A DNA stretch of 44,051 nucleotides from Bacteroidota bacterium (GTDB lineage Bacteria; Bacteroidota; Bacteroidia; CAILMK01; JAAYUY01). A program made the position numbers and the translations under genes. How positions within the stretch are numbered: position 1 is the stretch's first letter; each line of letters starts with the position of its first letter. The notes below the pieces were generated by a model that ran no database searches, was not told the DNA's origin, and saw only the letters and a list, made by a program, of their open reading frames with translations. This document shows, one piece after another, positions 994-35,345 of this stretch. Where the stretch lies: NCBI GenBank assembly GCA_018698135.1, contig JABINZ010000219.1:1-44051 (forward strand), read 5' to 3'.

Positions 994-1016
994 CTTTCAC
1001 TTGCTGGTAAGGTTGT

Positions 1017-2201: not shown

Positions 2202-2285
2202 TATGCCAATCTATAAATTCATACTTTATTCCTTCCATTCAGTTTCAAGTTTGCACTGTCGCCCATGCATGACCGCTAATGTTTA

Positions 2286-2526: not shown

Positions 2527-2536
2527 TGCAGTGTTT

Positions 2537-3274: not shown

Positions 3275-3549
3275 TTTTGTTTTTTTTACTTTGCACACTA
3301 TTGACTATCTGCACCAGTGTAGCATATAATTTATGTACCGAAATAGGTCTAGTAGCTGTTTTCAGTATATTAAGCCATTTTTGTAATAAATAGATTTTTT
3401 ACATAAAGCCATTTCAAATTTACTAATTAATAATTTGATCGCATATTATTGAAAGGACTGTGAGCATGATTATTTTATTCAATCCCTATAATATTCAATC
3501 TTATTTAGCAATTTCAGAAATCAAAATTTAAAGCACACCTTATTTTTAT

Positions 3550-3585
3550 AGCGACATTCTTTGGCGTCCATGACGCTTACTTTTG
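3550..3585 (+). promoter_or_regulatory. Imperfect inverted repeat and -7 element upstream of the AAA+ gene
   Basis: AGCGACAT at 3550-3557 is mirrored by ATGACGCT at 3570-3577 (one mismatch, 12-nt spacer). An inner GCGTC-CAT-GACGC hairpin lies at 3564-3576. The Bacteroidota-type -7 element TACTTTTG follows at 3578-3585, 20 nt before the start codon. The same AGCGACAT half-site forms a perfect inverted repeat before the WYL regulator transcript (6688-6706). Operator function is inferred. The rest of the gap from 3299 to 3549 shows nothing I can name. Confidence 0.4.
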
Positions 3586-3604
3586 TATTAAATTAAAACA
3601 AAGC

Positions 3605-5431: not shown

Positions 5432-6607
5432 ATGGATGAAATAACCAAAATTGAAAACCTCCTGATTCAAATAGGAGCAATTAATAAAAGCTATGAAAAA
5501 ATAGCCAAACTCACTGGTGAAAATTTTAATATTTTTGAAGTATTGGGATTAACTACCAATGAGGTTAGAACGCATTCAGCTTTCATTGCAGAACTATTAA
5601 ATCCAAAGGGTTCTCATGATCAAAATGAAGTTTTTTTAAAGCTCTTTTGTGAGCAGTTTAAGATCATTGATTTTGATGTTGAAACTGCATTAGTAGAAAT
5701 TGAAAAGCATACTGGCTTTATAAATGAAGAATATACTGAAGGTGGAAATATCGATATTATTGCTTCAGATGCTAATAATAATGCAATTATAATTGAGAAT
5801 AAAATTTATGCCCCCGATCAAAAAAATCAGCTTCTGCGTTACTTTAACTATGGAAAGAAGAACTGTAAATCTTTTAAAATGTTTTATTTGACACTTTTCA
5901 ATGATGAAACTAATTTGGGGAAAAATGGATTAGAGGAAAATGATTATACAAGCATTTCGTATTCTCATGAGATTTTGACATGGTTAGAGGCTTGTCGAGA
6001 GAAATCAACAAACCATCCTATTCTTCGAGAAACAATTACTCAATATATAAATTTAATCAAAATACTAACAAATCAAACAACAAATACAATTATGAAGGAA
6101 GAAATTTTAGCCAAAATAAAAAATAATAGTGAATATATTAAAGCTTATTTTGAATTAACTAGGTCAGATATACGGGATGGTGTTAATAATCATTTAGTAG
6201 GAGAATTGAAAAAGCAGATGGAGGAATTAGCTGTAGAATTGAAGATTGATTTTGCAGATGATTCTTTACTAAGTAAAAATGGGTTAGGATATTTTACATT
6301 TAAAATTAGAAATTCAACAAAAGGGTTTTATTTAGGATTTGGAAGTTGTGCAGCATATCATAATTTCTTTTTTTTGGTAGATTGTAATGATGAATATAGA
6401 GAAAATTCAAAAAAAGAAGTATGTGAAAGAATAGGTAATAGAGGAAAGGATTTTGATGAAATTTGGATACAAATGTTTGATAACGATATACGATATTGGC
6501 ATAACTCTTATAAACCATGGCATATGATTCAAAATGGTGAAATGAAAGATTATGTTAGGACAAAACTTAAGCATATTATTAGTAGTCTAGACGGATTCGA
6601 TTTATAA
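5432..6607 (+). CDS. PD-(D/E)XK nuclease family protein
   Basis: A 391-aa protein whose first 200 residues match the PD-(D/E)XK nuclease superfamily (PDDEXK_4, PF14281, by motif). It has an acidic/aromatic lead-in (FNIFEVLGLTTNEVRTHSAF), then the core GGNIDIIASDANNNAIIIEN with Asp108 and Glu122 followed by Lys124, and a Gln-containing helix (DQKNQLLRYF). All expected active-site residues are present, so DNA or RNA cleavage is plausible. The C-terminal half (about 205-391) is lysine- and aromatic-rich and unassigned; it may be a sensor or target-binding part. No methyltransferase is nearby, which argues against a classical restriction-modification system. A perfect hairpin lies 81 nt downstream. 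Confidence 0.8.
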   Translation: MDEITKIENLLIQIGAINKSYEKIAKLTGENFNIFEVLGLTTNEVRTHSAFIAELLNPKGSHDQNEVFLKLFCEQFKIIDFDVETALVEIEKHTGFINEEYTEGGNIDIIASDANNNAIIIENKIYAPDQKNQLLRYFNYGKKNCKSFKMFYLTLFNDETNLGKNGLEENDYTSISYSHEILTWLEACREKSTNHPILRETITQYINLIKILTNQTTNTIMKEEILAKIKNNSEYIKAYFELTRSDIRDGVNNHLVGELKKQMEELAVELKIDFADDSLLSKNGLGYFTFKIRNSTKGFYLGFGSCAAYHNFFFLVDCNDEYRENSKKEVCERIGNRGKDFDEIWIQMFDNDIRYWHNSYKPWHMIQNGEMKDYVRTKLKHIISSLDGFDL

Positions 6608-6687
6608 TAGAACCACTTTAAGTATTACTGACTTTATACCTCTTCTGCAAATAGGATTTCACCATAATTCATAAGAAATATTTTAGC

Positions 6688-6723
6688 AGCGACATATTGT
6701 GTCGCTCTAATTGATTATTTTTG
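6688..6723 (+). promoter_or_regulatory. Perfect inverted repeat and -7 element before the acidic protein/WYL pair
   Basis: AGCGACATATTGTGTCGCT (6688-6706) is a perfect 7-bp inverted repeat with a 5-nt centre. Nine nt later comes TATTTTTG (6716-6723), a TAnnTTTG -7 element. The next gene starts 108 nt downstream. The same half-site precedes the AAA+ gene (3550). It could be an operator for the WYL regulator encoded just downstream, or a terminator hairpin for the nuclease gene, since a T-rich tract follows. Confidence 0.45.
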
Positions 6724-6831
6724 TTCCAAAATATATAAAATCTTTGAGAATACTATCCAGAAATATAGCTTCAAATTAATCCACAATGCGATGGCATATA
6801 TTGGAAATAACAAGAAATTAAATAGAAAAAC

Positions 6832-7101
6832 ATGTTTATAGTAAAAGGGAAGAAAATTGACTTCAAAGAAGAACTAACTCAAGTTCGAAAAGAATTTGAA
6901 AAACTTGAAGATGCTGAAAAATATGCTAATGAATATTTGGATGGTTATACGATAACTGATGCAGATACAGGTGAAGGAATTATAGAGCAAGAAGATTCTA
7001 ACGCAATTACAGAAGCCTCTTTGGATAATATGTATCCAGATAGGCACGATAAAGATTTTGACCAAGACCAAATTTCAGGTGAGGACTTTTTTAAGGATTA
7101 G
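6832..7101 (+). CDS. Small acidic protein, 89 aa
   Basis: I do not recognise this protein. It starts MFIVKGKKIDFKEELTQVRK, is lysine/glutamate-rich in the first half, and becomes strongly acidic (DADTGEGIIEQEDSN, then DRHDKDFDQDQISGEDFF). No membrane segment or cysteine is present. It is followed after 9 nt by the WYL regulator, so the two are almost certainly co-transcribed. An acidic partner could act as a DNA mimic, regulator partner or antitoxin-like factor, but that is guesswork from composition and position. Confidence 0.65.
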   Translation: MFIVKGKKIDFKEELTQVRKEFEKLEDAEKYANEYLDGYTITDADTGEGIIEQEDSNAITEASLDNMYPDRHDKDFDQDQISGEDFFKD

Positions 7102-7110
7102 TAATAAATT

Positions 7111-8031
7111 ATGTCAAAACGAGCCTACATATCCCGTTACCTGCTAATTCTTAAAAAGCTGAAGGCAAAGCCATACAGCTCTTATGAAGAATTGCAAAGT
7201 TATATCGCAAATCAGGTTGAGTACTTGCAAATGCAGGATGATACTTTGAAAATTGCCTTTTCAAAACGGACATTGCAAAGGGACATTCGGGAAATCAGCA
7301 ACAATTTTGGAATAGATATCGAATTTTCGAATAAAGAAAAGGGTTATTATATCAGCCAAAGCGAATCAGAAAACATGAATTTCCAGCGAATGATTGAAGC
7401 ATTTGATATGTTTAACTCCCTAAATCTTGCCCAGGATTTAACTCCATATATATTTCTGGAAAAACGTAAACCCCAGGGAACTGAAAATCTTTATGGTTTG
7501 CTACATGCCATAAAAAACAAGTTTCAGATCAAGTTTGAATATCACAAATTTTGGGAAGATATTATAAGTCAAAGAATAACAGAACCATATGCTTTAAAGG
7601 AATATAAGAATCGCTGGTACGTTTTAGCAAAAGACTTGAAAGATAACAATGTAAAAAGCTTTGCTCTCGACCGACTCTCTAACCTTGAAATAACAAAGAA
7701 TACTTTTGAATTCCCCAAAGATTATGATGTTGAAGAAAGTTACCGCCATTGTTTTGGCATTATAAGTCCAGATGAAGGTGATAAACCTGAGGAAATTGTT
7801 CTTTCATTTGATCCATTCCAGGGAAAATACATCAAAACATTGCCACTTCATGAAAGCCAAGAAATATTGGTTGATAATGAAAATGAGCTGAAGGTCAGCC
7901 TTAAATTATACATTACTCATGATTTTATCATGGAATTACTTTCTTTTGGAGAAAATGTGCTTGTTCTTCAACCTGAGTCTTTAATGAATGAAATTAAAGA
8001 TGCTCATTTTAATGCATTTAATTTGTATTGA
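7111..8031 (+). CDS. WYL domain-containing transcriptional regulator
   Basis: A 306-aa protein with an N-terminal winged helix-turn-helix (about residues 1-85; the recognition part includes FSKRTLQRDIREISNNFGID) and a WYL domain (about 135-200; EPYALKEYKNRWYVLAKDLK, then SFALDRLSNLEI). A WCX-type C-terminal extension follows. WYL proteins sense nucleic-acid or nucleotide ligands and often repress phage-defence operons (BrxR and CapW are characterised examples). It lies 9 nt after the acidic protein and downstream of the AAA+/nuclease cluster. Shared AGCGACAT inverted repeats ahead of both transcripts fit it as the local regulator. Confidence 0.85.
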   Translation: MSKRAYISRYLLILKKLKAKPYSSYEELQSYIANQVEYLQMQDDTLKIAFSKRTLQRDIREISNNFGIDIEFSNKEKGYYISQSESENMNFQRMIEAFDMFNSLNLAQDLTPYIFLEKRKPQGTENLYGLLHAIKNKFQIKFEYHKFWEDIISQRITEPYALKEYKNRWYVLAKDLKDNNVKSFALDRLSNLEITKNTFEFPKDYDVEESYRHCFGIISPDEGDKPEEIVLSFDPFQGKYIKTLPLHESQEILVDNENELKVSLKLYITHDFIMELLSFGENVLVLQPESLMNEIKDAHFNAFNLY

Positions 8032-8685
8032 AAGCATACTTAATGCAATGTCATATGAACTATAAAATCACGAATTTTTGCAAAATCGGGGTAGTTATAA
8101 ACTTATAACCCTCATCTATCAATATCTCAACAATCTGAGCAATATCCCGACATATCTTTGACGCAAAAAAGATGATGGATTGGAAAGAAACCTGGTTGGA
8201 ATTGCCAAAAAACAACCAAAACTACTACTTCCGAATGATGGATCATCAAAATTATAAGTATGAATAATTTACCAGAAATATCCAATCACCTTTAGCATTG
8301 TAAAAAGGGTCATGCACAACGCATTTAAACCAAGCTGATTTAAGAACAAAAATCATTTCCTTTAAATTTTAGCAAATTCTTATTGCCAACCTGACTAACT
8401 CAGGAAGCATAACTTTGCTGTAAGATGTGTAATAGCATTTATCATGTATTAAATTCATTATCTGAGTGTTAATTTCAACAGTAATAAAATATTGCACTCA
8501 GATTGTGATGATATTGAAAAATAAATCCTAAATTTGAGTAAAGTTCTTATAATAATAATGTGAAATAATGGTCAGGCCCTTTTTAGGCCCCAAAAAGTAG
8601 CAAAATTGCGTTTCACTAATGTTTCATCTAAAAATTCACAAAGCTTATAAATCACTGATAATTAAACAATAACAGAATATGGTCA
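8032..8685. other. Non-coding right end of the island
   Basis: No convincing gene is seen in this 650-bp stretch. It contains a short palindrome (GTTATAAACTTATAAC near 8091-8106) and a perfect 9-bp inverted repeat ATCTGAGTG (8460-8468) / CACTCAGAT (8495-8503). A 31-codon frame at 8172-8267 (starting MMDWKETWLELPK) is preceded closely by TATCTTTG, but I cannot support it as a gene. The inverted repeats could be recombinase or accessory-factor sites near the attachment end. Confidence 0.4.
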
Positions 8686-8705
8686 GACTCCCCTCTTGGG
8701 CACAA
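8686..8705 (+). other. Probable attachment-site remnant: 3' end of a tRNA-Leu gene
   Basis: GACTCCCCTCTTGGGCACAA reads as the last part of a tRNA-Leu: T-loop end GACT, T-stem 3' strand CCCCT, acceptor 3' strand CTTGGGC and discriminator A. Upstream bases (TATGG in place of AGGGG) do not pair with the T stem, so the rest of the tRNA is absent. A strong terminator follows 10 nt later. This is what remains when an element integrates into a tRNA-Leu and carries its own copy of the 3' end. The intact tRNA should then lie left of the window. Confidence 0.6.
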
Positions 8706-8715
8706 TTTAACTTCT

Positions 8716-8748
8716 AATCCATTCGAAATCAATCGGATGGATTTTTTT
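8716..8748 (+). terminator. Rho-independent terminator
   Basis: AATCCATTCG (8716-8725) pairs with CGGATGGATT (8734-8743) over 10 positions including one G-U, with an 8-nt loop and a run of seven T at 8742-8748. It follows directly on the tRNA-Leu 3' fragment and no protein gene ends nearby, so it is best read as the original terminator of that tRNA. Confidence 0.75.
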
Positions 8749-8851
8749 ATGTCTACTCTTTAGCTTTTCCATTGATACCTATTGTTATTATTAGCTACAT
8801 CTTACTCCATAATAATTAATTGGTTTATTATAAAAATGATAACTTTATTTC

Positions 8852-9262
8852 ATGAAACTTCTCATGTTATTTTGCAGCAATTTTGCATTTGCTACCAAGA
8901 ACAAGGGGCTTGATGATGTGGCTGATTTTTTTGAAGAGAAACAGTTTATGGATGCATTGGTTGGATTTATTCATGTGGAGGAAAAAGATCAGGAAAGACC
9001 AAAACGAATTGAGGATAATTTGGTGAAAAACCTGAAATGGGGAGCTAGAAAAAACAATACGGATACAGTAATCGTTCATTCTTTTGCTCATTTATCAGAC
9101 AGCAAAGCTGAGCCTGAATTCACAAAAAACTTACTAGATAAAGTGACCAAGCGAATGCAAAATGCTGGATTTGATGTTACGCAAACACCATGGGGCTATT
9201 TCTTGGATCTCAATATACAAGCACCCGGAGAATCGTTGGCACGGGTTTTCAAAAGTTTTTAG
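8852..9262 (+). CDS. Stand-alone threonyl-tRNA synthetase editing-domain protein
   Basis: A 136-aa protein that resembles the archaeal-type N-terminal editing domain of threonyl-tRNA synthetase (PF08915), a fold related to D-aminoacyl-tRNA deacylase. Seen features are the N-terminal MKLLMLFCSNFAF strand, the VHSFAHLSDSKAEPEFTKNL block at 75-94, and the end TPWGYFLDLNIQAPGESLAR, which matches the family's PFGW...GHPLS region. It is the right length for the domain alone, with no catalytic or anticodon-binding part. The likely role is hydrolysis of mischarged (Ser or D-amino acid) tRNA in the cytoplasm. It is the first gene right of the island boundary. Confidence 0.75.
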   Translation: MKLLMLFCSNFAFATKNKGLDDVADFFEEKQFMDALVGFIHVEEKDQERPKRIEDNLVKNLKWGARKNNTDTVIVHSFAHLSDSKAEPEFTKNLLDKVTKRMQNAGFDVTQTPWGYFLDLNIQAPGESLARVFKSF

Positions 9263-9365
9263 TGAGGATTACAATTGCTGACTTCTGCATGAATGGATTT
9301 CTCAAATAAATTATGTTGCCAACTTAGCCTTGTTTAACACTTAACAAGTGCAATCTATTTCTCTC

Positions 9366-9806
9366 CTAAAAGCGAACCAAATCAATCAATTTAGCATGCA
9401 TTTCCTTGCCCACCATTTTGGATCCATCTTCAACAATGGCATTGGTTATCGCTTTAATATCATCAGTGTGTTGCCAATGTTTTTGCACTATACTATCATC
9501 CAAATTAGTAAAAGCATAGTTTAAGACAACAGCTGCCAAAACAATATCATCTGCATAGCCCATCGTTCCTGCAAGTGCTTCGGGAAATAAATCAAATGGC
9601 GAAAGAAAATAAGATATGGCAACAGCCAGATTTGCTTTATCTGCAATTTGAACTTCCTTTTCAAGAGACAATTTGCACATGAATTCAAATAACTGTGGTG
9701 TCCATTTTAAATGACGTGCAAACTCACTTTCGTGTCCTTTGTTTTCAAGCCAATAATTAATCCTGATTTGCAATCGATCTACAAAATCATTTTCCTGCTC
9801 TGCCAT
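9366..9806 (-). CDS. YkvA family protein (DUF1232)
   Basis: A 146-aa protein with the DUF1232/YkvA motif in its centre: KANLAVAISYFLSPFDLFPE followed by GYADDIVLAAVVLNYAF. Family members have a short hydrophobic hairpin around the SPxDLxPD motif and are thought to be membrane-associated; the molecular role is unknown. The N-terminus (DFVDRLQIRINYWLENKG) and C-terminus are soluble. The gene is monocistronic and converges on the editing-domain gene. Confidence 0.8.
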   Translation of the reverse strand: MAEQENDFVDRLQIRINYWLENKGHESEFARHLKWTPQLFEFMCKLSLEKEVQIADKANLAVAISYFLSPFDLFPEALAGTMGYADDIVLAAVVLNYAFTNLDDSIVQKHWQHTDDIKAITNAIVEDGSKMVGKEMHAKLIDLVRF

Positions 9807-9981
9807 ATAAATTCCTTTAGTAAAAAATAAACCTATTTTTTATTCGTTAATGCCTTGTAGTACAAGAATCTAAGTTACAACAATTCAATTTATTTCTTAT
9901 TTTGAAAAATTATTAGGATTATTGTAACAAATGAAAAGGCATTGTCGTCCTAATGTAATCAACACCAATCAAAGCTGAAAG

Positions 9982-12540
9982 TTGAAAACAATCTTAATAT
10001 CCATTACTTTTATCCTAATCAGTACAGTCCAATTATTTGCTGGTTATATTAGTGGCCGAATTACTGACACTCAGGGTGCCCCCCTTGCATATGCCAATGT
10101 TTATGTAAAAAACACTTCATATGGAGCCAGTTCAAACCTGAAAGGAAATTATTTTCTGGAACTTAAAAAGGGGAGTTATACCATCGTTTATAGTTTTGTT
10201 GGTTATGAATCACTTGAAAAAGACATTATAATAAATGAAAAAGAAGCAGTTAAGCTGAACGTTGTTCTCAAAGAAGCTTCGCATGAATTGACTGAATTTG
10301 AAGTAGTCGTAAAAAAGGAAGATCGTTCAAAAGAAATCCTTAAAAATGTGAGGGAAAATCGCAAATATTATTTGTCGCAAGTAAACTCCTACTCCTGTAA
10401 AAGTTATCAGAAAACATCGCTGGAAAAAGAATTGATAAAAATAAAAGCCAAAGACAGTATTATCAGCAAAAAAGATACTTTAAAGGAAGTTTCGGGTGAT
10501 ATGTTGGCCCATTTGAAGAAACAAAAAATGAATCTGATAGAGTCTGTATCAGAAACCTATTTTAAATCTCCATCCACCTATAAAGAAATTGTTTTAGCTC
10601 ACCACGATTATATTCAAAAGAAGGTGAATGTCGATCAATCTGCAGAAGTTTCTGTAGGAATTGAATATGGCCAACACGACATTGCACCAACACGTTTTCG
10701 AGCTGAAAATCCATATCTTGTTTATACCGATATTGCCAGTTGTGACTTTAATTTTTATAAGAACAACATTGATTATCCTGCCATCAGCAATAAGCCCTTG
10801 CTCTCTCCCATTGCAGCGAGCTCTATGCTTAGCTATACGTATAAATTTCTGGAATCGTTTGAAGAAGATGGACATGTTATTTATAAAATACAGGTGAATC
10901 CAATCTTCGAATCAGAAGCACTCTTTTCCGGTGTGTTGTATATTGAAGACAGCAGCTGGATGTTAAAATCAGTTGACCTATCCATTAACAGAGCTACCTT
11001 ATTTTTCTGTAAAGAATTCAGGATTATCCAAAATTATGAGGAAATAACAAAAGATGCTTACTTGCCTGTGCGAAGAGAATTTACCTATACAATAAAAGAT
11101 GGGCGCTATAATTACCTTGGAAATACCCGAATCAATCATTCCAATTATGAAATTAATCCTGATTTTGAAGCAAAGTTTTTCAATAATGAAATCAAACGAT
11201 ATGAAGTAGATGCATTCGATAAAGACTCTACTTATTGGCAGGAAGAAAGACCATTAACATTACAAATCGAAGAACTGGATTTCATTCGAAAAAGCGATAG
11301 TATTCAGGAATATTTTGTCAGTGACGAATACTATCATAAAATCGATTCTGCTTTTAATCGTATTAATTGGTGGTGGTTTTGGCTAACGGGTGTAGGACAT
11401 CGAAACAGGGCAAAAGGGAACGAATTCTATGTCAGTGGTTTAGTTGAACAAATAAATCCTTTAGGTATTGGAGGCTACCGACACAAACTTCCGGGCTATT
11501 ATAATAAAGATTTCAAAAATGGGATGAAACTTGAAACCCGTGGATTTATTGATTATGGATTTAATAACAAAGACATTAAAGGTCAGCTTGGAATTGGCTT
11601 AACATACCTTCCCCTAAAATTCGTAAGAACATTTATTGATATTGGTGATTTTTACACACAAATCAATGAATTTGCTTCATTCGAACAGATTTTCAGCCGA
11701 AGCAATTATGTTCGAAAAAAATCAGTTATTATTACCCAGCGAATGGAAATTGTTAATGGTTTGTTTGGAGAATTAACACTTGACTATTCTGATCAGGACC
11801 CTATTAAAGATCTGCAGCTTTCCGAATGGTCTGAAATAATTTTTGGTGAAATAAATAAACCCACCGATTTTGTACGCTACAAAAAAGCGGAGGTAAAACT
11901 GGAACTAAAATATAGATTTAAGCAAAAGTATATCCTGAAAAATGGTCGAAAAATAATTATTGGTACTGATTATCCTGAGCTCGACTTCATTTATCGAAAA
12001 GGAATACCCAATTTGTTTAATAGTGAAGTCGATTATGATTATATCGAACTGGGTGCACATTACGATATGGATTTAGCTCGTTTGGGTTCATCTCGATGGC
12101 GTGTGCTGGCAGGTTCCTTTATAAACAAAAAGAACCTGCGTGTACTGGAGCACAAATACTTCAGAGGTTCCGATTACTTCTTCTTTTCAGATCCTCTGCA
12201 ATCTTTTCAATTAATGGGTCCGACATTAAGTACAGCTGATGAATATTTCAGAGCAAACTACATTCATCATTTTGAAGGCACAATAATGAACAAGATTCCT
12301 CTTATTAATCGATTAAAACTTGGATTATCGGCTGGTGCAGGCACACTTATTATTCCTGATATTAATTTTAGACATTTTGAAGTTTTTGCAGGCATTGAAC
12401 GCGCTATCCGAATAAAACAGCAATTATTCCGTTTTGGTATTTATGCAGTAACTGCCGATAACTCCTTTGAAGCTGCTGATTTCACTTGGAAATTTGGTAT
12501 TGATTTCTTCAATAGTTTTACAAATAAGTGGGGGTACTAA
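9982..12540 (+). CDS. DUF5686 outer-membrane protein with carboxypeptidase-like regulatory domain
   Basis: An 852-aa protein with a signal peptide (MKTILISITFILISTVQLFA). A CarboxypepD_reg-like beta-sandwich covers about residues 20-100 (ISGRITDTQGAPLAYANVYV, KGSYTIVYSFVGYE). A long DUF5686 region follows, ending in alternating strands that look like an outer-membrane barrel. This domain order is a standard Bacteroidota envelope protein; substrate and function are not known, though the fold is TonB-receptor-like without a recognisable plug. The start is TTG at 9982; no ATG gives a sensible signal peptide. It is flanked by oppositely oriented genes, so probably monocistronic. Confidence 0.8.
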   Translation: MKTILISITFILISTVQLFAGYISGRITDTQGAPLAYANVYVKNTSYGASSNLKGNYFLELKKGSYTIVYSFVGYESLEKDIIINEKEAVKLNVVLKEASHELTEFEVVVKKEDRSKEILKNVRENRKYYLSQVNSYSCKSYQKTSLEKELIKIKAKDSIISKKDTLKEVSGDMLAHLKKQKMNLIESVSETYFKSPSTYKEIVLAHHDYIQKKVNVDQSAEVSVGIEYGQHDIAPTRFRAENPYLVYTDIASCDFNFYKNNIDYPAISNKPLLSPIAASSMLSYTYKFLESFEEDGHVIYKIQVNPIFESEALFSGVLYIEDSSWMLKSVDLSINRATLFFCKEFRIIQNYEEITKDAYLPVRREFTYTIKDGRYNYLGNTRINHSNYEINPDFEAKFFNNEIKRYEVDAFDKDSTYWQEERPLTLQIEELDFIRKSDSIQEYFVSDEYYHKIDSAFNRINWWWFWLTGVGHRNRAKGNEFYVSGLVEQINPLGIGGYRHKLPGYYNKDFKNGMKLETRGFIDYGFNNKDIKGQLGIGLTYLPLKFVRTFIDIGDFYTQINEFASFEQIFSRSNYVRKKSVIITQRMEIVNGLFGELTLDYSDQDPIKDLQLSEWSEIIFGEINKPTDFVRYKKAEVKLELKYRFKQKYILKNGRKIIIGTDYPELDFIYRKGIPNLFNSEVDYDYIELGAHYDMDLARLGSSRWRVLAGSFINKKNLRVLEHKYFRGSDYFFFSDPLQSFQLMGPTLSTADEYFRANYIHHFEGTIMNKIPLINRLKLGLSAGAGTLIIPDINFRHFEVFAGIERAIRIKQQLFRFGIYAVTADNSFEAADFTWKFGIDFFNSFTNKWGY

Positions 12541-18110: not shown

Positions 18111-18839
18111 ATGCTTGTCAAATCACAAGGAATTGTCATAAAAAGTACACGCTATTCCGAAAGCAGTGCAATTGTTAAAATATACACACAAGGCTATGGA
18201 ATGACTGCATTCCTAATTCAGGGTATGTACAGCAAAAAATCGGGACTTAAGCCAGCCCTGTTTCAACCACTCCAGGTTTTGGAGCTGGATTTCTATTTTA
18301 AAGAAAACAAAAACCTGCTGAAAGTAAAAGAAGCGCGATCGGCTTTTGTGCTTAATCATTTACATTTCGAAATGAAACGCAGTACAATTGCGATGGTTAT
18401 TTCTGAGCTCATTTATAAATGCATACAGGAAGAAGAAGAAAACAAGGAGATGTATGATTTCCTAGTTTCCAGCATTCATATTCTGGACAATCCAAGCAAG
18501 GATAGCAATCATTTTTTATTATTTTTCATGCTTCATTTCAGTCGGTATTTAGGTTTCTTCCCTGCTAATTCTTTTTCTGATGATTTACCCAACTTTGATT
18601 TATATGAAGGTCGCTTTAAATCCGACATGGGAATAAATACCTTTTTATTAGATACGCAGTCGAGCTTTTTATTGAACCAGATAATCAACACAAATATTGG
18701 GGAATATGATAGCATACAAATCCCTCAAATAGAGCGATTAAAACTCATTGAATATTTAATTGATTACTATAAAATCCACATTTCAGGATTTCATAAGTTG
18801 AGCTCGTTCGAGGTTATCAAGGGATTGTTTTTGAAATAA
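18111..18839 (+). CDS. recO: DNA repair protein RecO
   Basis: A 242-aa protein of the usual RecO length. The N-terminal OB-fold begins KSQGIVIKSTRYSESSAIVK and contains YGMTAFLIQGMYSKKSGLKP, as in RecO. A helical C-terminal domain follows (HFSRYLGFFPA). The zinc-binding cysteines of some RecO proteins are absent, which is common in Bacteroidota. RecO helps RecR load RecA onto SSB-coated single-stranded DNA in gap repair. It abuts the porZ-like gene and probably shares its transcript; the DNA partner recF is at 34.2-35.3 kb here. Confidence 0.92.
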   Translation: MLVKSQGIVIKSTRYSESSAIVKIYTQGYGMTAFLIQGMYSKKSGLKPALFQPLQVLELDFYFKENKNLLKVKEARSAFVLNHLHFEMKRSTIAMVISELIYKCIQEEEENKEMYDFLVSSIHILDNPSKDSNHFLLFFMLHFSRYLGFFPANSFSDDLPNFDLYEGRFKSDMGINTFLLDTQSSFLLNQIINTNIGEYDSIQIPQIERLKLIEYLIDYYKIHISGFHKLSSFEVIKGLFLK

Positions 18840-18849
18840 GTTAAAAGTG

Positions 18850-19212
18850 ACTTGAGTGACTAAAGTGTAAAGTTAATCCCCTCCACCTAAAAGCACAGTA
18901 GGTTTTCAAAACTTCTGAGTTCTCAAATGAGTGGCTAAGATGAGAGATAATTAAACTTTAGGCACTCCATTACTTCAAACTCTAGGCACTTACTTATAAG
19001 ATACAAAGCACCTGGGTCCTCAAATGAGTGACTCAGATGGGAGGCAAATAAGTTTAAAGTGCCTAGAGTGTCTAAAGTATAAAGTTAATCCCTTCCTCTT
19101 GAGAGTATAGGCTTCTTCTGAAATATCTCGATCCTCCAATGAATGACTCAGTTAAGAGATAATTAAACTTTAGGCACTCCATTAAATCCAACTTTAGGCA
19201 CTCTAGGCACTT
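18850..19212. repeat. Imperfect 212-bp tandem repeat with internal inverted repeats
   Basis: The recO-dehydrogenase gap holds a duplicated unit. AGAGATAATTAAACTTTAGG plus ten more bases (18943-18972) recurs identically at 19155-19184. The block CTAAAGTxTAAAGTTAATCC at 18860 recurs at 19072. Both pairs are 212 bp apart. A third motif, AAATGAGTGxCTxAGATGxG, appears near 18924, 19020 and (weaker) 19137. AAAGTGCCTAGAGTGTCTAA (from 19056) is inverted at 19190-19212. The period is too long and the copies too imperfect for CRISPR. Confidence 0.75.
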
Positions 19213-26299: not shown

Positions 26300-29200
26300 T
26301 TAGCGAATGACATAGTTAAGTCGTAACATGCCCCAAAACTCTTCATAAAACTGAGAACCAATACCCGACATTTCAAATGAACCATAACCCAGTTGAGCAG
26401 TAAGATCCATGTTTTTTATAATTCGATAGGTTAGCTCAAATTTGTGCACCTGACGAAAAGATTGTGAACTGAATAAGGCAGGTTCAACACTAACGGTATT
26501 GGATGAAATTGCAGCTCTGATTCTATTATTATTGGTTTTCCAGCTAAGTCTGAAACCAAGGGTGTATTGTAAACTCAAATCAGTCGTGTCAACACTTTGA
26601 ACAAAGCTCTGATAGAAAGCACTGAAACCAATATTATAAGGAAGCTGCTCCATGATGTTCACATTAATAGAACTACTGGTTTGATCTGATATATTTACTA
26701 TGCTATGCTGATTTAAATAATGATTATAGGAAACACCTAAATTATGTTTTACTGCACCCGTTTTAAAATGATAATTAGCCCCTGCGGTTGCATGTTGAAT
26801 AGCCGAACTTTGATATGCATTACCCGTCTTGGTCATCCATTCATTGCGCAAATACTGACGCATGGAGAATGAAAAAACAGGCCATTTTTTCGAATAATTG
26901 AAGTTCAGCTTCGCTCCTGCAATTTGGGTGTTTTTTGTAACGGATTGTATTTCTGAAAGATTATTCACATAATTTGTATACGATAATACAACATGAACTC
27001 TTTTCTTCCAAAATGAAAACCGATCGTCAATACTATACTTTAATCGGTCATTTAGTAAATATGGATTCCCGAAAGAAAAATAAGTGCTACCAATGCGATC
27101 AAATTTGAAATAGAAATGCTGTTTCAGGATATTCAATTTTGCTTTTGCATAAAGAGCCAAAGGAGGTCGATTATTCCAATTAAGTGGCTTGGTTGTACTA
27201 TTTAGGGTAATTAACCATTTGAAGTTCTCAGGAAAAAAGGGGAGATCTGATCCAAACAATTCATCAATTTGGTATTTGGTAAAAACACCTTTGCGTATAT
27301 CATCGGTTGTAACACTCAAGGCAACACCAAAATCTGCTTCAAAAATATTATTCCTTGATTTCACCTGATTGCTGGCACCAAACACAAAATTCTGACTCGC
27401 ATAACCACCATATGTAATTGAATTAGTGTCGTCAGTTGCTTGTAAGAAAATGATGTTAAACGTTGTATTGTCGATGGCATTGAATTTCAGGTTTAACACC
27501 GAAATATCTCTTTGGTAATTCCCTTCCAATAAGTAAGATGAATCGGGCTGTAAATTTGATGGAGGAAATCCTTGTCCATCCATATATATATGCGTGGATC
27601 CCTCAACGCTTCGTGCTACTTCTCCTTTGGCATAAGAGATTTCCATTCCTCTATGCAGGAAAGAAACATTAACGCCCCTTATTGGCTGACCATATAGAAC
27701 CTGCTTATGAAAATAAGGATTGAAATCACCAATATGCAATTTAAACTTCTTTGTTTCCAAACCAGTCATAAAGCGATTTCGATAGGGAAGAAAAGTATTT
27801 TCCTGATTACTCAAACTAATCCGTACTGGAATATCGAGCTTTTTATAACTGATTTTACCATTAAAACGTAAACTATTGTACTGATTGGGTTCTTGCCTTA
27901 AATAGGAATCGGGTCCACTTAATTTATTATACCTGGCAGAAGTACTTAAGTATCCTTTAAAGCCCAGTTTATTAGTCGTTTTTTCAAATGATGAGTTGCT
28001 GTATTTTTCTTTTTTCATTTTTCTATTAGCAATGAAAAATGACCAGTTTTTAAAATAGATTTGCTTGTTTACATCCCTGAATCGGAGCTCAATGTCATAG
28101 ATATCTGGTCGGACTTTGGTTGTGAATAGAGCCGAAATTGTACGTCCGATAACCCTTACTTGTGAACTAACTTCTGCTGAAGCTATGAAAATTTGAACGC
28201 TACTCGGATCAATTTTTATACGAGGATTCACTTCACAAACAATGAGAATTTCGCCATTGATAACCGTATCTCCTTTATGTGGACATAGAATATTGATCTT
28301 ATCTAATTCACGGAATTCCGACACAACAAACTGAATATCTTCCTCATCTTCAAAATTCCTTTCTTTTTTTGCAGGCGCATTAATCACTCTTTCCCACTGA
28401 AGCTGTTTTCCAAGCTCATTAAATTTGTTGATACTAATTATTACAGTATCCTGATAAAACACTTGATCAATTTGATAACTGAGAACAATTCTTCTTTTAA
28501 AAAGTGAATCAACCTGATTGAAGTATACCTCTTCTCCAGATTTATACTCCCCATCAAAAAACCACTGAATTTGTCCACCTTTGGGATAAACATTCGACTG
28601 ACAAACTATACGATTATTCTCTAATTCGATAGATACGATTTCAGCCAAAAGGCTATGCACATGAACATCCCTGCTTATTCTGCCTATTTTGTGATGCACA
28701 TATAATGATTCAATGCTATCGGCATTCCCACATCCAAAACAAGCGAAACTATCTAAAATAGAAATGGAGTTTGATTTCGTTGGCAAAGCATAAGTAATGT
28801 CATAATCAACATTTAGTTTGGCATTATAGCTCTTTCCTGATTCATTAATAAGTTCTAAATCGGGGGAAATAAATCCATAGGTTGCCAGTCCACTTACAGG
28901 ATTTAATAAGATGTTATCCGATAAAACATCCCATAAAATAGGACCTTCAGCTGAAAAATCCAACTCCATTGATTCAAATAAATCGGTTTTGTACTGAAAT
29001 TTTCTTTCCACCTCGGTATACTCTCTGCTTTGTAGGCTGACGTATAAATCATTTTTGACATGAAGGCCAAACAAATCATCAACAATTTCTGATACATTTA
29101 TTTCGGTTCCCGGTGTTTGGTTTGAAATTACAACATTTGCCTCAGCAATAAGATTTTTATAACTGGCCTTGACTTGAACGGGAGTCATGTATTTATCAGA

Positions 29201-30466
29201 CCTAAATACCCCTTTTGAATTTATTTGAGCATATTTGTTGGGCAGAACTTCCCACACAGCATCTAATTTAACCTCTTCATTGTCCTTAGTAATTCCAACT
29301 AACTGAAACTGAAAACTTCTATTTGGCTCAATGATGAGTTTTTCTGGCACAATTTTCAATTTTTCAAATTGCTTAAAACCATCATTGGTTTCTGAAATAC
29401 TAAACCAAAAAACATCACTATACACTTTTTGATCACCTTTTGAAGCCAAATAATGGCTGCTGATTTGCCATGCATAGGTTTTTCCTTCTTCCAATAGTTC
29501 CGCAAAAGAAGTGTAGTTCAAATAGTTATCTGTTAAAGCTTCTGCGATAAAAACAGGATAATTTGTCATTATTTCTTCGGCAGACTCCTGTCCGTGCATC
29601 ACTTCCACCAGTTTAAAGTCAAAAGAGAAACCCGAAGAAAACCACTGAAAAAACTGAATTCCCGGATCTAAAATTTCCGGATTTTCGAAAACTGAGTTTC
29701 CAGGTCCAATCAAATCGATATCAGGAAAGTTATTATCCAGATAAATACTGTGTTCATCAGTTAATAAAATATTTTCCTGATCATCTAAAACAGCAATAAT
29801 TAATTCATATTCACCTGAAGGAAGAAAGGATGTTTCAGCTGATTTCTTCAGGAATAAATCGGCTTGTCCATTTATTAAATAATCATCAAAATCACGATTC
29901 GTAATAGAAAGAAGATCACCGGGCAGCAATGTTTGCAGGTTTTTTTCTGCTAAAAGCAATTCCCCATAATCAATACTATTTAATAAGAATCGAATTTTGA
30001 CTGTTCTGCTACTTTGATCGTTTGAAAAAATAATATTAAAAATCAATGGATTTTCCATTGCCTTTATCGGATCAAAATCAGATATTCGGAGAAATTCATA
30101 AGGCATCAAATGCAGGTTCAACGACATGCTTGATGCACCATCAATAATCTGAATAGCATCATCAAAAATAAATTGTTGGTTCAAATAATTCAATTGTAAA
30201 TCTCGATAACCATCTGATAGAAAGCTTGGAACATCTAACTCAATACTCAATAAAGTGGGTGTAATTACCTGAGTGGAGAGAATATTAATATCAGCACCAA
30301 AACTAACTGATGGAGCATATAAATCAAAACGAGTATCTTGTGTTTTAACTAAAAGTAAAGATGCTTGACCTTTCGAAAGCACCGATGGTGATAGGGAAAG
30401 CAAATCGACTTGTGAAAAAGTCAATAAAGGGAAAAATGCTATTAAAACCAGAAAGATTCTTTTCAT
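26300..30466 (-). CDS. Very large outer-membrane-type protein with Ig-like domain and C-terminal beta-barrel
   Basis: A 1388-aa protein with signal peptide MKRIFLVLIAFFPLLTFSQ. The N-terminus resembles an IPT/TIG strand pattern (LSPSVLSKGQASLLLVKTQD). Around 260-360 there is a fibronectin-like stretch with FQWFSSGFSFDFKL and KTYAWQISSHYL. About 375-455 looks like a Big_2 Ig domain (KLIIEPNRSFQFQLVGITKD ... INSKGVFRSD). The last 500 residues are alternating amphipathic strands ending LRLNYVIR, typical of a Bacteroidota outer-membrane barrel. A CFGCGN motif near 585 is unexplained. No TonB box, SusC plug or known enzyme is seen. I use the ATG at 30466 rather than the TTG two codons upstream. 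Function unknown. Confidence 0.7.
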   Translation of the reverse strand: MKRIFLVLIAFFPLLTFSQVDLLSLSPSVLSKGQASLLLVKTQDTRFDLYAPSVSFGADINILSTQVITPTLLSIELDVPSFLSDGYRDLQLNYLNQQFIFDDAIQIIDGASSMSLNLHLMPYEFLRISDFDPIKAMENPLIFNIIFSNDQSSRTVKIRFLLNSIDYGELLLAEKNLQTLLPGDLLSITNRDFDDYLINGQADLFLKKSAETSFLPSGEYELIIAVLDDQENILLTDEHSIYLDNNFPDIDLIGPGNSVFENPEILDPGIQFFQWFSSGFSFDFKLVEVMHGQESAEEIMTNYPVFIAEALTDNYLNYTSFAELLEEGKTYAWQISSHYLASKGDQKVYSDVFWFSISETNDGFKQFEKLKIVPEKLIIEPNRSFQFQLVGITKDNEEVKLDAVWEVLPNKYAQINSKGVFRSDKYMTPVQVKASYKNLIAEANVVISNQTPGTEINVSEIVDDLFGLHVKNDLYVSLQSREYTEVERKFQYKTDLFESMELDFSAEGPILWDVLSDNILLNPVSGLATYGFISPDLELINESGKSYNAKLNVDYDITYALPTKSNSISILDSFACFGCGNADSIESLYVHHKIGRISRDVHVHSLLAEIVSIELENNRIVCQSNVYPKGGQIQWFFDGEYKSGEEVYFNQVDSLFKRRIVLSYQIDQVFYQDTVIISINKFNELGKQLQWERVINAPAKKERNFEDEEDIQFVVSEFRELDKINILCPHKGDTVINGEILIVCEVNPRIKIDPSSVQIFIASAEVSSQVRVIGRTISALFTTKVRPDIYDIELRFRDVNKQIYFKNWSFFIANRKMKKEKYSNSSFEKTTNKLGFKGYLSTSARYNKLSGPDSYLRQEPNQYNSLRFNGKISYKKLDIPVRISLSNQENTFLPYRNRFMTGLETKKFKLHIGDFNPYFHKQVLYGQPIRGVNVSFLHRGMEISYAKGEVARSVEGSTHIYMDGQGFPPSNLQPDSSYLLEGNYQRDISVLNLKFNAIDNTTFNIIFLQATDDTNSITYGGYASQNFVFGASNQVKSRNNIFEADFGVALSVTTDDIRKGVFTKYQIDELFGSDLPFFPENFKWLITLNSTTKPLNWNNRPPLALYAKAKLNILKQHFYFKFDRIGSTYFSFGNPYLLNDRLKYSIDDRFSFWKKRVHVVLSYTNYVNNLSEIQSVTKNTQIAGAKLNFNYSKKWPVFSFSMRQYLRNEWMTKTGNAYQSSAIQHATAGANYHFKTGAVKHNLGVSYNHYLNQHSIVNISDQTSSSINVNIMEQLPYNIGFSAFYQSFVQSVDTTDLSLQYTLGFRLSWKTNNNRIRAAISSNTVSVEPALFSSQSFRQVHKFELTYRIIKNMDLTAQLGYGSFEMSGIGSQFYEEFWGMLRLNYVIR

Positions 30467-30598
30467 ACTCAAATGCTAAAAAATTGCATTAATTAGAACG
30501 AATTTAATTTATCTGGCAGGCATTTCCAAATTTATTGCTAAACCGTTATTCTCCCCTCTGAAATAGTAAACAGTTGTATGTTTTTGTTGAGATTATAG

Positions 30599-30661
30599 AA
30601 TACTTCGCTCACTCTTCAGCATTAGTATCTTAATAAAAATCTCACCAAAACCATTGGATGT
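30599..30661 (-). pseudogene. Decayed fragment of the recF 3' end
   Basis: This stretch aligns with the 3' part of intact recF (34303-34367) in the same orientation. Identical blocks include AATACTTC, GCATT, GTATC, ATAAAAATCT and ACCAAAACCATTGG, with about 50 of 65 positions matching and two 1-nt gaps. On the minus strand it reads TSNGFGEIFI, then, after a frameshift, DTNAE and VSEVF. RecF itself has TTNGFGQIFITDTNADRVKE. The fragment lies between the large outer-membrane gene and the split T9SS gene. It marks the far edge of a ~3.7-kb inserted or duplicated segment. The surrounding gap (30467-30697) holds nothing else. Confidence 0.8.
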
Positions 30662-30697
30662 TGAAAAATTCACAAACACATTTCCCAAAAATATAGA

Positions 30698-32635
30698 TTA
30701 CATTTTCAGGAATCTTTTCAAAGAGATTTTATTTTCCCCAACAATTCGAATTAGGTAAAATCCAGAAGGGTACTCTGAAATGTTTACAGCCTTATTTTGA
30801 ATTGGCATTTCAAGTATCATTTTCTGAGAAACTTTTCCAGTTTGGTCAATTATGCTGATACTAAAACTACCTTTTTCAGGACAACTCAAAAGCAATTCAT
30901 TTTCAGCTGGATTTGGAAATATTTCAAATTCAAAATTTCCAAAAAGTTCAATCTGCTGGAATTTAATAACCGTTATTTCGATGCTATCTGTATATGTACA
31001 ATTATTTGAATCAGTAATGGTCACATAGTAGATATGTTTACCAAGCCCAGCTAAAGCTCCATTCACTGTATAAATTGAATCTACGGAGTTATCCTGCCAT
31101 TTATATGCTTTAAATCCTGTTCCTGCACTTAATAAGAGATACTGATTATCATATATCACTGTGTCATTTCCAAGAAAAGTGAATGGTAAAGGATTATAAT
31201 TAATATGAATCATATTTGATGTATCTGAACATCCGTTTTGGTCAGTGACAAGCACAAAATAAGTACCCTGTTGAGTAACTTCAAAGTTATGATTAGTATC
31301 CACCCCATTATTCCAATCATAATATTTGAAATGCATTCCTGCTTCTAAAACTAGAATATCATTATTACAAAGTGATGTATCATTACCCAGATTAACTATT
31401 GGAAGCGGATAAATAGTGATAGAGACAGTATCTGAATAGGTTTGACAATTATACTGATCTGTCACAAGAACAAAATAATCTCCAGATTTTGAAACATTAA
31501 TCGTTTGTGTGGAATCTGTTCCATGATTCCAGATATACCTATCAAAGTTTTTCCCTGCATCCAAAATAATATTAGTATCTGCGCAAATAGAACTGTCATT
31601 GCCTAATTCAACTTTGATATTGCAATTTTTTACAGTAATCTTGATACTATCTATTCCAGCACAGTTCATTGAATCTCTCAGAGTAACATAATAGTAATAA
31701 TCTCCAGCGTTCAATTTACTTCCATCCACTTCAATACTTTGGTTTTTTGAATTGTCATTCCAAGTATATTCCAAATATCCTGAATCAGCAAATAATGTCA
31801 TTTTCTGAGATGTAAATAAAAATGTATCGTTTCCTAAACCAAAGTATGGGAAAGTACACCCAGATACAGTGAGGTTCAATGTATCTCCACCCATACATCC
31901 ATTTGAATCGATAGCCCTTACAAAGATTTGATGTGTTCCTGTTCCTAGTAATGCACCTGATAAGTTGATTGTTTGTGAAGTTGAATTATCAAACCACTTA
32001 AATGCTGAGTAGCCTGATCCTGCAGAAAATCCAATACTTTGATAATTATTAATACTTGTATCGTTGCCAATGTTCATTGATTTAGTACAACCCTGCACTG
32101 TAAGTTTTAATGTATCAGTTGCTACACAACCACCCTGCGTAGAAACCTTAACAGCTATATTATGGGTTCCTAGTCCAATAGCAAAAGCATCCACTAATTT
32201 TGTGGAGGAAAATGTCTGGTCATTCCATAAGTATTCACGATGCCCTTTGCCTGGATTAAGAATAATAGTATCATAGATGAAAATTGAAGTATCATTACCA
32301 AGATCAACACTGAAATTGCACGGGAGACCATAATTATTAATTCTGTAAAGAGCGGATAATCCAAAACACCAAGTAAACCCTTGTTCATTAAACTGAATGT
32401 GATCGGGACCTCTAAACCAATCTTCAAAAACTTTTGTCCAATTTTTACAGCCATCAATTGTAGAAAGGATACTATCTCGGCTTGCAATCAATCCCGTATC
32501 TTTATTGTACATCCTAATTGAACTGATGTCTCTGGATATCCCTGAATTAAGTTTTTTCCAAGACTTACAACTATCTTCAGTCATAATAAGAAATCCATTA
32601 GTTCCTACTGCCCAACCAATTTTATTACTGATAAA
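30698..32635 (-). pseudogene. T9SS cargo protein, downstream part beyond an in-frame stop (LGNDT repeats and sorting domain)
   Basis: Reading in frame from just after the TAG at 32636-32638 gives 645 codons. They begin FISNKIGWAVGTNGFLIMTE, which is the start of another Ycf48/BNR-like repeat (then SCKSWKKL and TIDGCKNWTKV). Six repeats of 85-100 aa follow, each opening with LGNDT or IGNDT and containing a Tyr-x-Trp-Asn-type strand (YLWND, FKWFD, YTWND, YIWNH, YDWNN, YKWQD). The C-terminus is a T9SS type-A sorting domain (FEIFPNPAENELLLS ... GFYLIRIVG). It has no signal peptide, so this part is unlikely to be exported alone. An internal ATG at 32584 could start translation. It belongs with the gene at 32636-34069. 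Confidence 0.8.
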
Positions 32636-34069
32636 CTAAATTTCGCTTATTTCTTCATTTGAATTTGTGTAAACTTTTGTCCAACTTATCCCACCATCTG
32701 TCGTTTTATAAATATTATGTTCATTTGAAAGAAATCCATTGTTTCTGTCAATAAATTGAAAATCTGTATAACAACAACCAAATGAAAATGAATTTGACCA
32801 AGTTTTACCTCCATCTAAAGTTCTAAAAAATTCATAACTTTTTATCCCAAATCCAACAATGCTATCGATGAAAAATAATTTTTTATAATAATTATTTGAA
32901 ATTTTAGCCCAATTTGATCCATAATCATCTGAATAAAGCAAAAAATGACTACCACTTGCCCATACATGATTCTTATGAGCATAAATGCATTCAATAGATG
33001 TATTCGTATCAAACTGGTTTTCCCACGAGGCTCCACCATCATTTGTAAAAAATATTCCTGAAGTAAACATACCACTTGCCCAAGCTACATTAGAGTCACT
33101 TAAACAAGCTGAATTTATAAAAACGATTTCTGGATAAAGAGTTTTCCAGTTTTGTCCAAAATCTGAAGAAAACCCAATAAATGAGCTGCCAACACTATTG
33201 AAGTTACCAGGCCTATATAAATAACAATGCAAGGAGTCGATTAATTCCACCTTATATCCCTGCCCTATTTGTTTACTTTGCCATGTAGTTCCGCCATCTT
33301 TTGTAATAAGTATTTCATTTTTGCATATTACCATTCCATAATTGGCATTAATAAATTCTATATATTCAATATTATGAATACTTATAGTATCCGAAGCCCA
33401 GGTATTTCCTCCATCAACTGTTTTAAATAATCTCCCACGAATACCTGCTACCCAACCCGTATCTCTGTTTAAAAAATAGATACACTTTAAGGTATCCAAT
33501 GTATTCAAATTTTGAGCAGTCCATGATAAGCCACTATCGATGGTTGAGTATATTGTTCCACTATCACCAGACAACCATCCATATGCCTGATCAACGAAAA
33601 AGAGATCATAATTTTGTTTCCCTAAATATTGAGAAGACCATGATTTGCCTCCATCTCTTGATACTTTACACTTGCCATAATACACATTATAGCAAAAAAT
33701 ACTTTGTTCATTTAAAGCAAATATCTTCGTTCCCCATTGAGGATAAAGAGGAGAAATAGAGCTCCAGGTTTTTCCTGCATTTGAAGTTTTACAGAAATAA
33801 GAACCATTGAATCCAAAACCAATATTCTCATTAAGAAAATAAACAGGAGAGATATTCCACTCATTCACCGGAATCCAATGCTTTCCTCCATCCGTAGTTT
33901 TTGCATTTCCCTTATTAGAATATACAATACCGTTTAAGGTGTCAAAAAAATGAATCCTATTTTCATAAGAATTGGCAGGAAGTAATGGATATAGTCTTTG
34001 AAAAGCAGGTTGAGCATTGCTGTTCAAGCAAAGCAAAATTACAAAAAAGGTGAATAAGAGTTTTTTCAT
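32636..34069 (-). CDS. Secreted Ycf48/BNR-repeat protein, N-terminal part, ends at premature TAG
   Basis: A 477-aa product with signal peptide MKKLLFTFFVILLCLNSNAQ and about eleven beta-propeller repeats. Each is marked by a T/S-x-D-x-G-x-x-W motif (TTDGGKHW, TSNAGKTW, SRDGGKSW, TVDGGNTW, TNDGGASW, TLDGGKTW, TTDGGISW) preceded by phrases such as YGWLSGDSG and TGWVAGIRG. The frame stops at TAG in the middle of the next repeat, and the same frame continues with the rest of that repeat and a sorting domain. As it stands the product lacks a T9SS signal and would stay in the periplasm. The whole gene would encode about 1,120 aa. The 175-bp gap to recF shows nothing notable. Confidence 0.75.
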   Translation of the reverse strand: MKKLLFTFFVILLCLNSNAQPAFQRLYPLLPANSYENRIHFFDTLNGIVYSNKGNAKTTDGGKHWIPVNEWNISPVYFLNENIGFGFNGSYFCKTSNAGKTWSSISPLYPQWGTKIFALNEQSIFCYNVYYGKCKVSRDGGKSWSSQYLGKQNYDLFFVDQAYGWLSGDSGTIYSTIDSGLSWTAQNLNTLDTLKCIYFLNRDTGWVAGIRGRLFKTVDGGNTWASDTISIHNIEYIEFINANYGMVICKNEILITKDGGTTWQSKQIGQGYKVELIDSLHCYLYRPGNFNSVGSSFIGFSSDFGQNWKTLYPEIVFINSACLSDSNVAWASGMFTSGIFFTNDGGASWENQFDTNTSIECIYAHKNHVWASGSHFLLYSDDYGSNWAKISNNYYKKLFFIDSIVGFGIKSYEFFRTLDGGKTWSNSFSFGCCYTDFQFIDRNNGFLSNEHNIYKTTDGGISWTKVYTNSNEEISEI

Positions 34070-34244
34070 CAGTTCAAGAGTTAGTTAATTGTAATTATCC
34101 TCCAAATTCAATTGTGAAATACTCTAAATCAAATGATTCTGGTATTTGAAATCTAGATAAAGATAATATATCTTATCGTAATTAACAATTATTCAGAATA
34201 AAGGGATAACAAATGTTTTAATCCGAATTGCATTTATACTAATG

Positions 34245-35345
34245 CTAATTCACTTTCCCATCTTCCACCAAAAATATCTGTATCTCTTTCCCTAACTTTC
34301 CAAATACTTCTTTCACCCGATCTGCATTGGTATCAGTTATAAAAATCTGACCAAAACCATTGGTTGTAATAATATCCATCAGGCGTGTTGTCCTGTCACG
34401 ATCGAGCCTATCGAAGATATCATCCAATAAAAATAGAGGTTCGATGGAAGTTGACGATTTAATAATACTAAACTGCGCCAGCTTCATGGAAAGAAGAAAG
34501 GATTTCTGTTGTCCTTGCGAAGCAAAGCGCTTGGCTGGGTAACCATGAATCTCCAATTCTAAATCATCTTTATGAACTCCAACATTTGTTCGTTGTGTAA
34601 AATAATCTTTTTGAAAACTTTCCTTCCATAAGTCATGAAGGGAAGCATCAATCAATTGGCTTTTATATTTCAAACTTATTTGCTCACTTTGATTGCTTAT
34701 TTGTGCATAATATTTCAGTGTTAATTCACAGAATTCATCAATAAATTTTTGCCTTTTTGTAAAAATTAATTGAACTGGTTTCAACAATTGTGCATTATAC
34801 ACATCCAAAAGTGCAGCATTTCGATTCTCATGCTCAAACATATGCTTGAGCTGTGCATTTCGCTGTAGCAGTAATCTATTGTAGGATATCAATGCATTCA
34901 AATATTCCGAATCGAATTGAGAAATAATCATGTCCAGAAAACGTCTTCTTTCTTCGCTTCCACCAGTAATGAGGCTGTTGTCGTAAGGCGTTACCATCAC
35001 AACAGGAAATTGCCCGATGTGGTCAGATAGCTTCTCATAGTCGACACCGTCCTTCTTTATCTTCTTCTTCATTCCCTTAACAAAGGCACAGAAAAGAGCA
35101 TGAGCCTCCCCATGCTTTTCAATGGAACAGCTAATATTAAAAAAATCCTTTTCGTAATTAATGTTTTGCTGATCGATTGAATTGAAATAACTCTTACCCA
35201 TAGCCAGATAATGAATGGCATCCAGTAAATTGGTTTTACCTGCTCCATTATTTCCCGCAAAACAGACGTATTTTGAATCAAATTTGATATCAAATGACTG
35301 CAGGTTTTTAAAATTTTCGCTATGTAATTCCTTAAGAAAAAGCAT
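34245..35345 (-). CDS. recF: DNA replication and repair protein RecF
   Basis: A 366-aa SMC-like ATPase of normal RecF length. It starts MLFLKELHSENFKNLQSFDI. Walker A GNNGAGKT is at 31-38, the KKDGVDYEKLSDHIGQFPVV block and the SEERRRFLDMIISQFD motif are present, the signature FASQGQQKSFLLSMKLAQF lies near 275, and Walker B EPLFLLDDIFDRLD near 310. RecF binds DNA gap junctions and, with RecO and RecR, directs RecA loading. All motifs are intact. A decayed copy of its 3' end lies at 30599-30661, beyond the T9SS gene. It follows the 162-aa secreted protein gene by 57 bp. Confidence 0.95.
   Translation of the reverse strand: MLFLKELHSENFKNLQSFDIKFDSKYVCFAGNNGAGKTNLLDAIHYLAMGKSYFNSIDQQNINYEKDFFNISCSIEKHGEAHALFCAFVKGMKKKIKKDGVDYEKLSDHIGQFPVVMVTPYDNSLITGGSEERRRFLDMIISQFDSEYLNALISYNRLLLQRNAQLKHMFEHENRNAALLDVYNAQLLKPVQLIFTKRQKFIDEFCELTLKYYAQISNQSEQISLKYKSQLIDASLHDLWKESFQKDYFTQRTNVGVHKDDLELEIHGYPAKRFASQGQQKSFLLSMKLAQFSIIKSSTSIEPLFLLDDIFDRLDRDRTTRLMDIITTNGFGQIFITDTNADRVKEVFGKLGKEIQIFLVEDGKVN

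Follow-up and report, generated by a model that had tools for sequence, protein, structure and literature searches.

In the genome of a marine Bacteroidota bacterium, a segment of about 3.7 kb carrying a T9SS gene was probably inserted into the 3′ end of recF after the split from the sister species (genome G001), and the recF end was probably duplicated in the same event. We find the end of recF on both sides of the T9SS gene, an empty site in the sister species, the second end at its ancestral position and faster in its change, and the same scar recurring around unrelated cargo at other genes. Insertion and duplication would represent one single event proceeding without a dedicated transposase or integrase, and the scar at several genes suggests a transposase-free way of gaining genes in this genome.

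The window, i.e. the whole stretch of 44,051 nucleotides that was analysed, contains one intact recF, 76% identical to the single recF match of G001, and a second, decayed recF 3′ end on the far side of the T9SS gene (Table 1). A blastn comparison of the window with itself aligned 30599-30661 and 34303-34367 as a direct repeat of 65 bp with 81.5% identity (E 1.2e-8), and the local alignment of the two ends reached a score of 67, whereas 300 Markov shuffles gave at most 33. The same-orientation match reported in the initial annotation is thus real and significant, and its coordinates are right. The reading of the fragment as a frameshifted RecF C-terminus holds as well, although the remnant is longer than had been claimed; beyond the frameshifts its translation continues as EVFYNLNKNIQLFTISEGRITV up to a stop codon near 30529, in parallel to the likewise terminal EVFGKLGKEIQIFLVEDGKVN of the intact recF and KVFGKLGKEIQVLNISDGEINS of the G001 recF. 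The repeat comprises 65 matched bp and spans ca. 122 bp or more. Three-taxon JC distances assign a branch of 0.29 to the remnant vs. 0.11 to the intact copy, i.e. a ca. 2.5-fold difference (990 of 1000 bootstraps), as expected of a copy that arose after the divergence from G001 and was not under selection. A quartet test on the origin of the two recF ends comprised only 0, 3 and 4 sites.

Table 1. Features of the recF region in window coordinates.
Feature	Position	Strand	Basis
1390-aa gene, ancestral downstream neighbour of recF in the genus	26300..30472	(-)	53% identical to G001 1396-aa gene
Ancestral recF/1390-aa gene spacer with conserved block TAAATTAAATTCGTTCTAATT	30467..30528	(-)	alignment to G001 spacer
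recF 3′-end remnant, decayed, frameshifted, at ancestral position, ending in stop codon	30529..30661	(-)	blastn, translation
Putative insert 3′ tail (~36 bp) and junction with recF remnant	30662..30697	(-)	
Putative inserted cargo, T9SS gene of 1123 codons	30698..34069	(-)	Pfam PF14870, PF19081, PF18962; TIGR04183
T9SS gene 5′ region, 175 bp, G+C 24.6%, putative part of insert	34070..34244	(-)	composition, flank alignment
recF 3′ end, intact copy, ~122 bp to stop codon	34246..34367	(-)	matches 30599-30661
recF, intact, 366 aa, target gene	34245..35345	(-)	NCBIfam TIGR00611 recF, 324 bits (cut-off 172)

The empty recF site is known from one sister genome, G001 being the sole genome of the same genus compared. 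There, recF (locus L033, 10819-11922) is separated by 56 bp from the ORF of the 1396-aa gene (6572-10762), the homologue of the 1390-aa gene, and no T9SS gene lies between them, which is the arrangement that the initial annotation had expected of a relative devoid of the T9SS gene. The remnant and the 1390-aa gene are spaced about as closely as recF and the 1396-aa gene in G001, and the downstream flank of the remnant aligns to the G001 spacer with a score of 58, vs. a mean of 23 for shuffled sequences (p 0.001). Spacing and flank match together indicate that the decayed copy occupies the old place, and that it is the intact recF which carries the additional end. An insertion that left recF intact, as formerly claimed, is thus borne out by the order of genes in G001 and the collinear position of the remnant. 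In a further genome (G002) recF is directly followed by a homologue of a 191-aa gene, from which we conclude that the 1390-aa gene itself was gained or lost at the recF spot. A search for a recF remnant beyond the 1396-aa gene of G001, made to see whether that gene had come likewise, was negative (p 0.85). The block TAAATTAAATTCGTTCTAATT upstream of the 1390-aa gene is kept in both species (10745-10821 of L033) and possibly acts as a promoter or operator; a similar block is also present on another contig of the genome (G000:C125, near 5690-5731).

The T9SS ORFs stand alone between the two recF ends, and neither the window ORFs nor Pfam matches revealed an integrase, a transposase or an IS within the insert. 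The T9SS gene is composed of a signal peptide (identified by eye), YCF48/BNR-like repeats, an Ig_7 domain and a Por_Secre_tail that scores 44.8 bits against PF18962 and 39.6 bits against TIGR04183, as is characteristic of type A C-terminal sorting domains. Its product is a predicted T9SS-secreted protein, whose reading frame also contains a TAG. The gene had been described as split and bracketed by the two recF ends; the bracketing stands, but the break consists of a single in-frame TAG (32636-32638, codon 478 of 1123), and the two ORFs share the same frame without a frameshift, the only stops being codons 478 and 1124. The best match in the sister genome (E 3e-21) is attributable to the common repeat and sorting domains. 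A second DNA copy of the insert does not occur elsewhere in this genome, on which ground an origin of the T9SS gene by copying from there was rejected, and neither a donor nor an independent copy of the cargo was found. Relatives of recF in other collections were confined to one GTDB contig (identical with G001), an unrelated weak match and one weak match to a viral contig.

The search for comparable arrangements was restricted to this one genome (G000), which encodes at least 150 T9SS type A sorting tails (127 in G001), and took in the surroundings of 150 of these tails, in pieces of at most 20 kb, corresponding to 94 pieces including the window, 1.55 Mb and ca. 37% of the genome. Another T9SS gene flanked by the 3′ remnant of a host gene, as looked for on the proposal of the initial annotation, was encountered within this portion on contig C221, where a T9SS gene of 704 aa (1732-3846) lies between an intact ywbE (4098-4295, TIGR03833) and a decayed ywbE 3′ end (1630-1709) that reads KSPNHPHGIKVQLDIGEVGRGKSIIE up to its stop codon, the repeat measuring 80 bp. 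The ywbE site is not orthologous in G001; ywbE of that genome (L198, G001:C51, 9505-10758) resides in another neighbourhood, where the next gene is a T9SS gene (322 aa) as well, with no evident remnant. A third case emerged from a survey of all two-copy direct repeats, whether flanking T9SS genes or not. On contig C134, the gene of an M28 peptidase precedes a convergent operon made up of an ECF sigma factor gene, a gene that is anti-sigma-like in its position and a 327-aa gene; behind the operon lies a 64-bp copy of the peptidase 3′ end with 94% identity. The corresponding site of G001 is empty, as the peptidase gene is followed ca. 280 bp on by the next T9SS gene without the operon, and no homologue of the 327-aa gene was found among the family genomes compared. 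In a fourth, mirrored case (L189, G000:C279, 5025-6503) it is the 5′ end of vsr that occurs twice, once on either side of a Bro-N domain gene.

The scar at ywbE, M28 and vsr around different cargo implies that genes other than T9SS genes can form the cargo and that recF is not specifically targeted, so that an event directed at recF, as previously suggested, is not sustained. A special role of T9SS genes as cargo was likewise rejected, since two of ca. 136 testable T9SS ORFs vs. at least two clear non-T9SS cases reveal no enrichment. The two-copy survey yielded 14 direct and 0 inverted pairs under the same filters, some of the direct ones being tandem paralogues or dispersed repeats which were left out as cases; before filtering by ORFs and copy number, the same range of length and distance contained 197 direct and 3 inverted pairs. 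As tandem duplication also favours direct pairs, this strand asymmetry speaks against a random scattering of gene fragments, but is on its own no proof of target duplication.

Several other repeats were recorded along the way. A 160-bp direct repeat of 73% identity in the window (1008-1152 and 2277-2433) brackets a 313-aa GIY-YIG gene (1260-2201, minus strand), which is possibly another insertion with target duplication. Two adjacent direct repeats of 159 bp (18834-18990 and 19046-19202) are 78.6% identical. On contig C23 (L096; 131-264, 4353-4580, 4578-4712 and 13724-13952) two consecutive units each consist of a 135-bp repeat, different T9SS cargo genes and a 228-bp repeat with an attC-like hairpin, and look like cassettes with exchangeable cargo. 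Integron cassettes were discarded, as TIGR02249 gave no match to an integron integrase above cut-off in G000-G003.

Based on these data we propose the following scenario. After the split from G001, a segment of ca. 3.7 kb with one complete T9SS gene and its own upstream region would have entered the 3′ end of recF, and the same event would have duplicated ca. 120–190 bp of the target, namely the recF end and probably part of the spacer. Thereby the 5′ part of recF would have been joined to a full 3′ end beside the new gene, while the old 3′ end stayed behind beyond the insert, next to the 1390-aa gene, and decayed due to its lack of function in this place. The DNA segment might have been captured during the repair of a staggered break, or introduced by template switching, with the target being copied in either process, and the survivors would be those insertions that kept the target gene intact. 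We tentatively prefer this route, although at somewhat less than an even chance, and a single-crossover or one-sided homologous integration of DNA already furnished with a recF end is nearly as likely. The downstream border of the duplication is less sharply defined. The flank behind the stop codon of the intact recF shows some similarity to the G001 spacer (p = 0.019), which hints that the duplication runs past the stop codon, and the duplicated end may extend up to ~45 bp beyond it; duplicated spacer might thus be contained in the recF-proximal end of the T9SS gene 5′ region. The comparison of the same flank with that of the remnant gave p = 0.16, and that of the two post-stop flanks at ywbE p = 0.70.

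A chance similarity or an assembly artefact can be practically dismissed; the genome is distributed over 287 contigs, but the match has an E value of 1e-8, lies at the collinear ancestral place and is complemented by the expected empty site in an independent genome. A plain tandem duplication with erosion of one recF copy, the other option of the initial annotation, falls short because a second event would be needed to bring the T9SS gene. If such a step is added, so that a short stretch at the recF 3′ end was first duplicated in tandem and the T9SS gene entered between the two ends later and independently, the direct orientation of all pairs found is readily accounted for, as tandem duplications are inherently direct. 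However, ywbE, M28 and vsr would all have had to pass through the same two steps, and no tandem-only intermediate was seen, so that we regard this succession of steps as improbable. Tyrosine-recombinase islands enter gene 3′ ends in such a manner that the element restores the end of the target and a remnant is left on the far side. An integrative element with an attachment site in recF might, in analogy, have brought a replacement recF end, and would explain a restored 3′ end on one side and a remnant on the other. In contrast to such islands, there is no integrase in or beside the insert and no fixed attachment site, a shared core of the recF, ywbE and M28 junctions not being apparent by eye, and several unrelated genes served as targets for different cargo. 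A site-specific element at recF was rejected on the basis of the multiple target genes and the missing integrase, and a contribution of this kind appears highly improbable.

A donor in which the recF end of a relative was already linked to the T9SS gene deserves closer attention. One homologous exchange inside recF, either as a single crossover with a circle or, for a linear piece, as homology-facilitated illegitimate recombination in which the other end is joined without homology, would yield exactly the observed anatomy; the 3′ part of recF would in that case come from the donor, and the remnant would be the original end of the recipient gene. Duplications of the lacZ end by single crossover in E. 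coli (PMC3240628) and a similar one-sided model for T6SS effector/immunity arrays with displaced 3′ ends (PMC5361080) provide precedents. Moreover, the similarity in the recent M28 case ends sharply, one base past the stop codon, which counts against our preferred explanation, since such an end is not required of a target copy and would be explained by pre-linked donor DNA. On the other hand, the cargo must already adjoin the same gene in the donor and no such donor was found, and the divergence from G001 is not higher in the intact recF end than in the remaining recF. As both routes presuppose a pre-linked cargo, they account for its spread and not for its first arrival, and shift the origin one step back. 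We consider a donor of this kind possible but less likely than not, and retain the insertion with concomitant copying of the target as the working model.

The build-up of very large and fast-changing sets of T9SS-secreted proteins in Bacteroidota without visible mobile elements is so far poorly explained. It is conceivable, albeit speculative, that whole secreted-protein genes and small operons are acquired and rearranged in this lineage through a general insertion process that requires no transposase and duplicates 60–200 bp of the target, that the surviving insertions are those with a copied gene 3′ end, and that the process helped to build the lineage's set of at least 150 T9SS genes. Remnants of gene ends represent a readable scar of such arrivals, which dates and places each gain and can be counted across genomes.

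Related processes are known from other bacteria. In sequenced E. coli clones, single crossovers of conjugated DNA with a shortened lacZ end produced lacZ-end duplications of 109–950 bp (PMC3240628). These products, as well as those of homology-facilitated illegitimate integration (work cited in PMC5361080), share with the present case a shortened duplicated gene end beside foreign DNA, but they were seen under selection and with donor DNA that already carried the gene end, whereas no donor was found here. Homology-facilitated illegitimate recombination was also proposed for the T6SS effector/immunity displacement arrays of Vibrio cholerae, in which the 3′ end of the old gene is likewise left downstream of the incoming genes; there, the effector gene itself is replaced, while the target is unrelated to the cargo and preserved in our case (PMC5361080). 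The closest correspondence is offered by the insertion with long target duplication, reported for Helicobacter pylori (Nobusato et al. 2000, as cited in PMC1643837 and PMC3031569), where most of the described cases concern restriction-modification genes that differ between strains of a single species. Common features are the presence in one genome and absence from a close relative (recF, M28), long direct repeats of the target, variable in length and single in the empty genome (65 bp at recF, 80 at ywbE, 64 at M28), and, at recF, an insert without IS, transposase, integrase or transposon ends. The Helicobacter cases differ in their cargo, T9SS genes and a sigma operon being found here, although restriction-modification genes are typical of them and not defining; furthermore, the present cases belong to an uncultured Bacteroidota lineage, are older and decayed, and the duplicated part consists of gene 3′ ends. 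Break repair or template switching as the route of such insertions is our own reading. By its arrangement, the recF insert matches a variant of insertion with long target duplication whose cargo types would extend the known range, and a mechanism proposed for restriction-modification genes would thereby apply to secreted-protein genes and regulatory operons as well.
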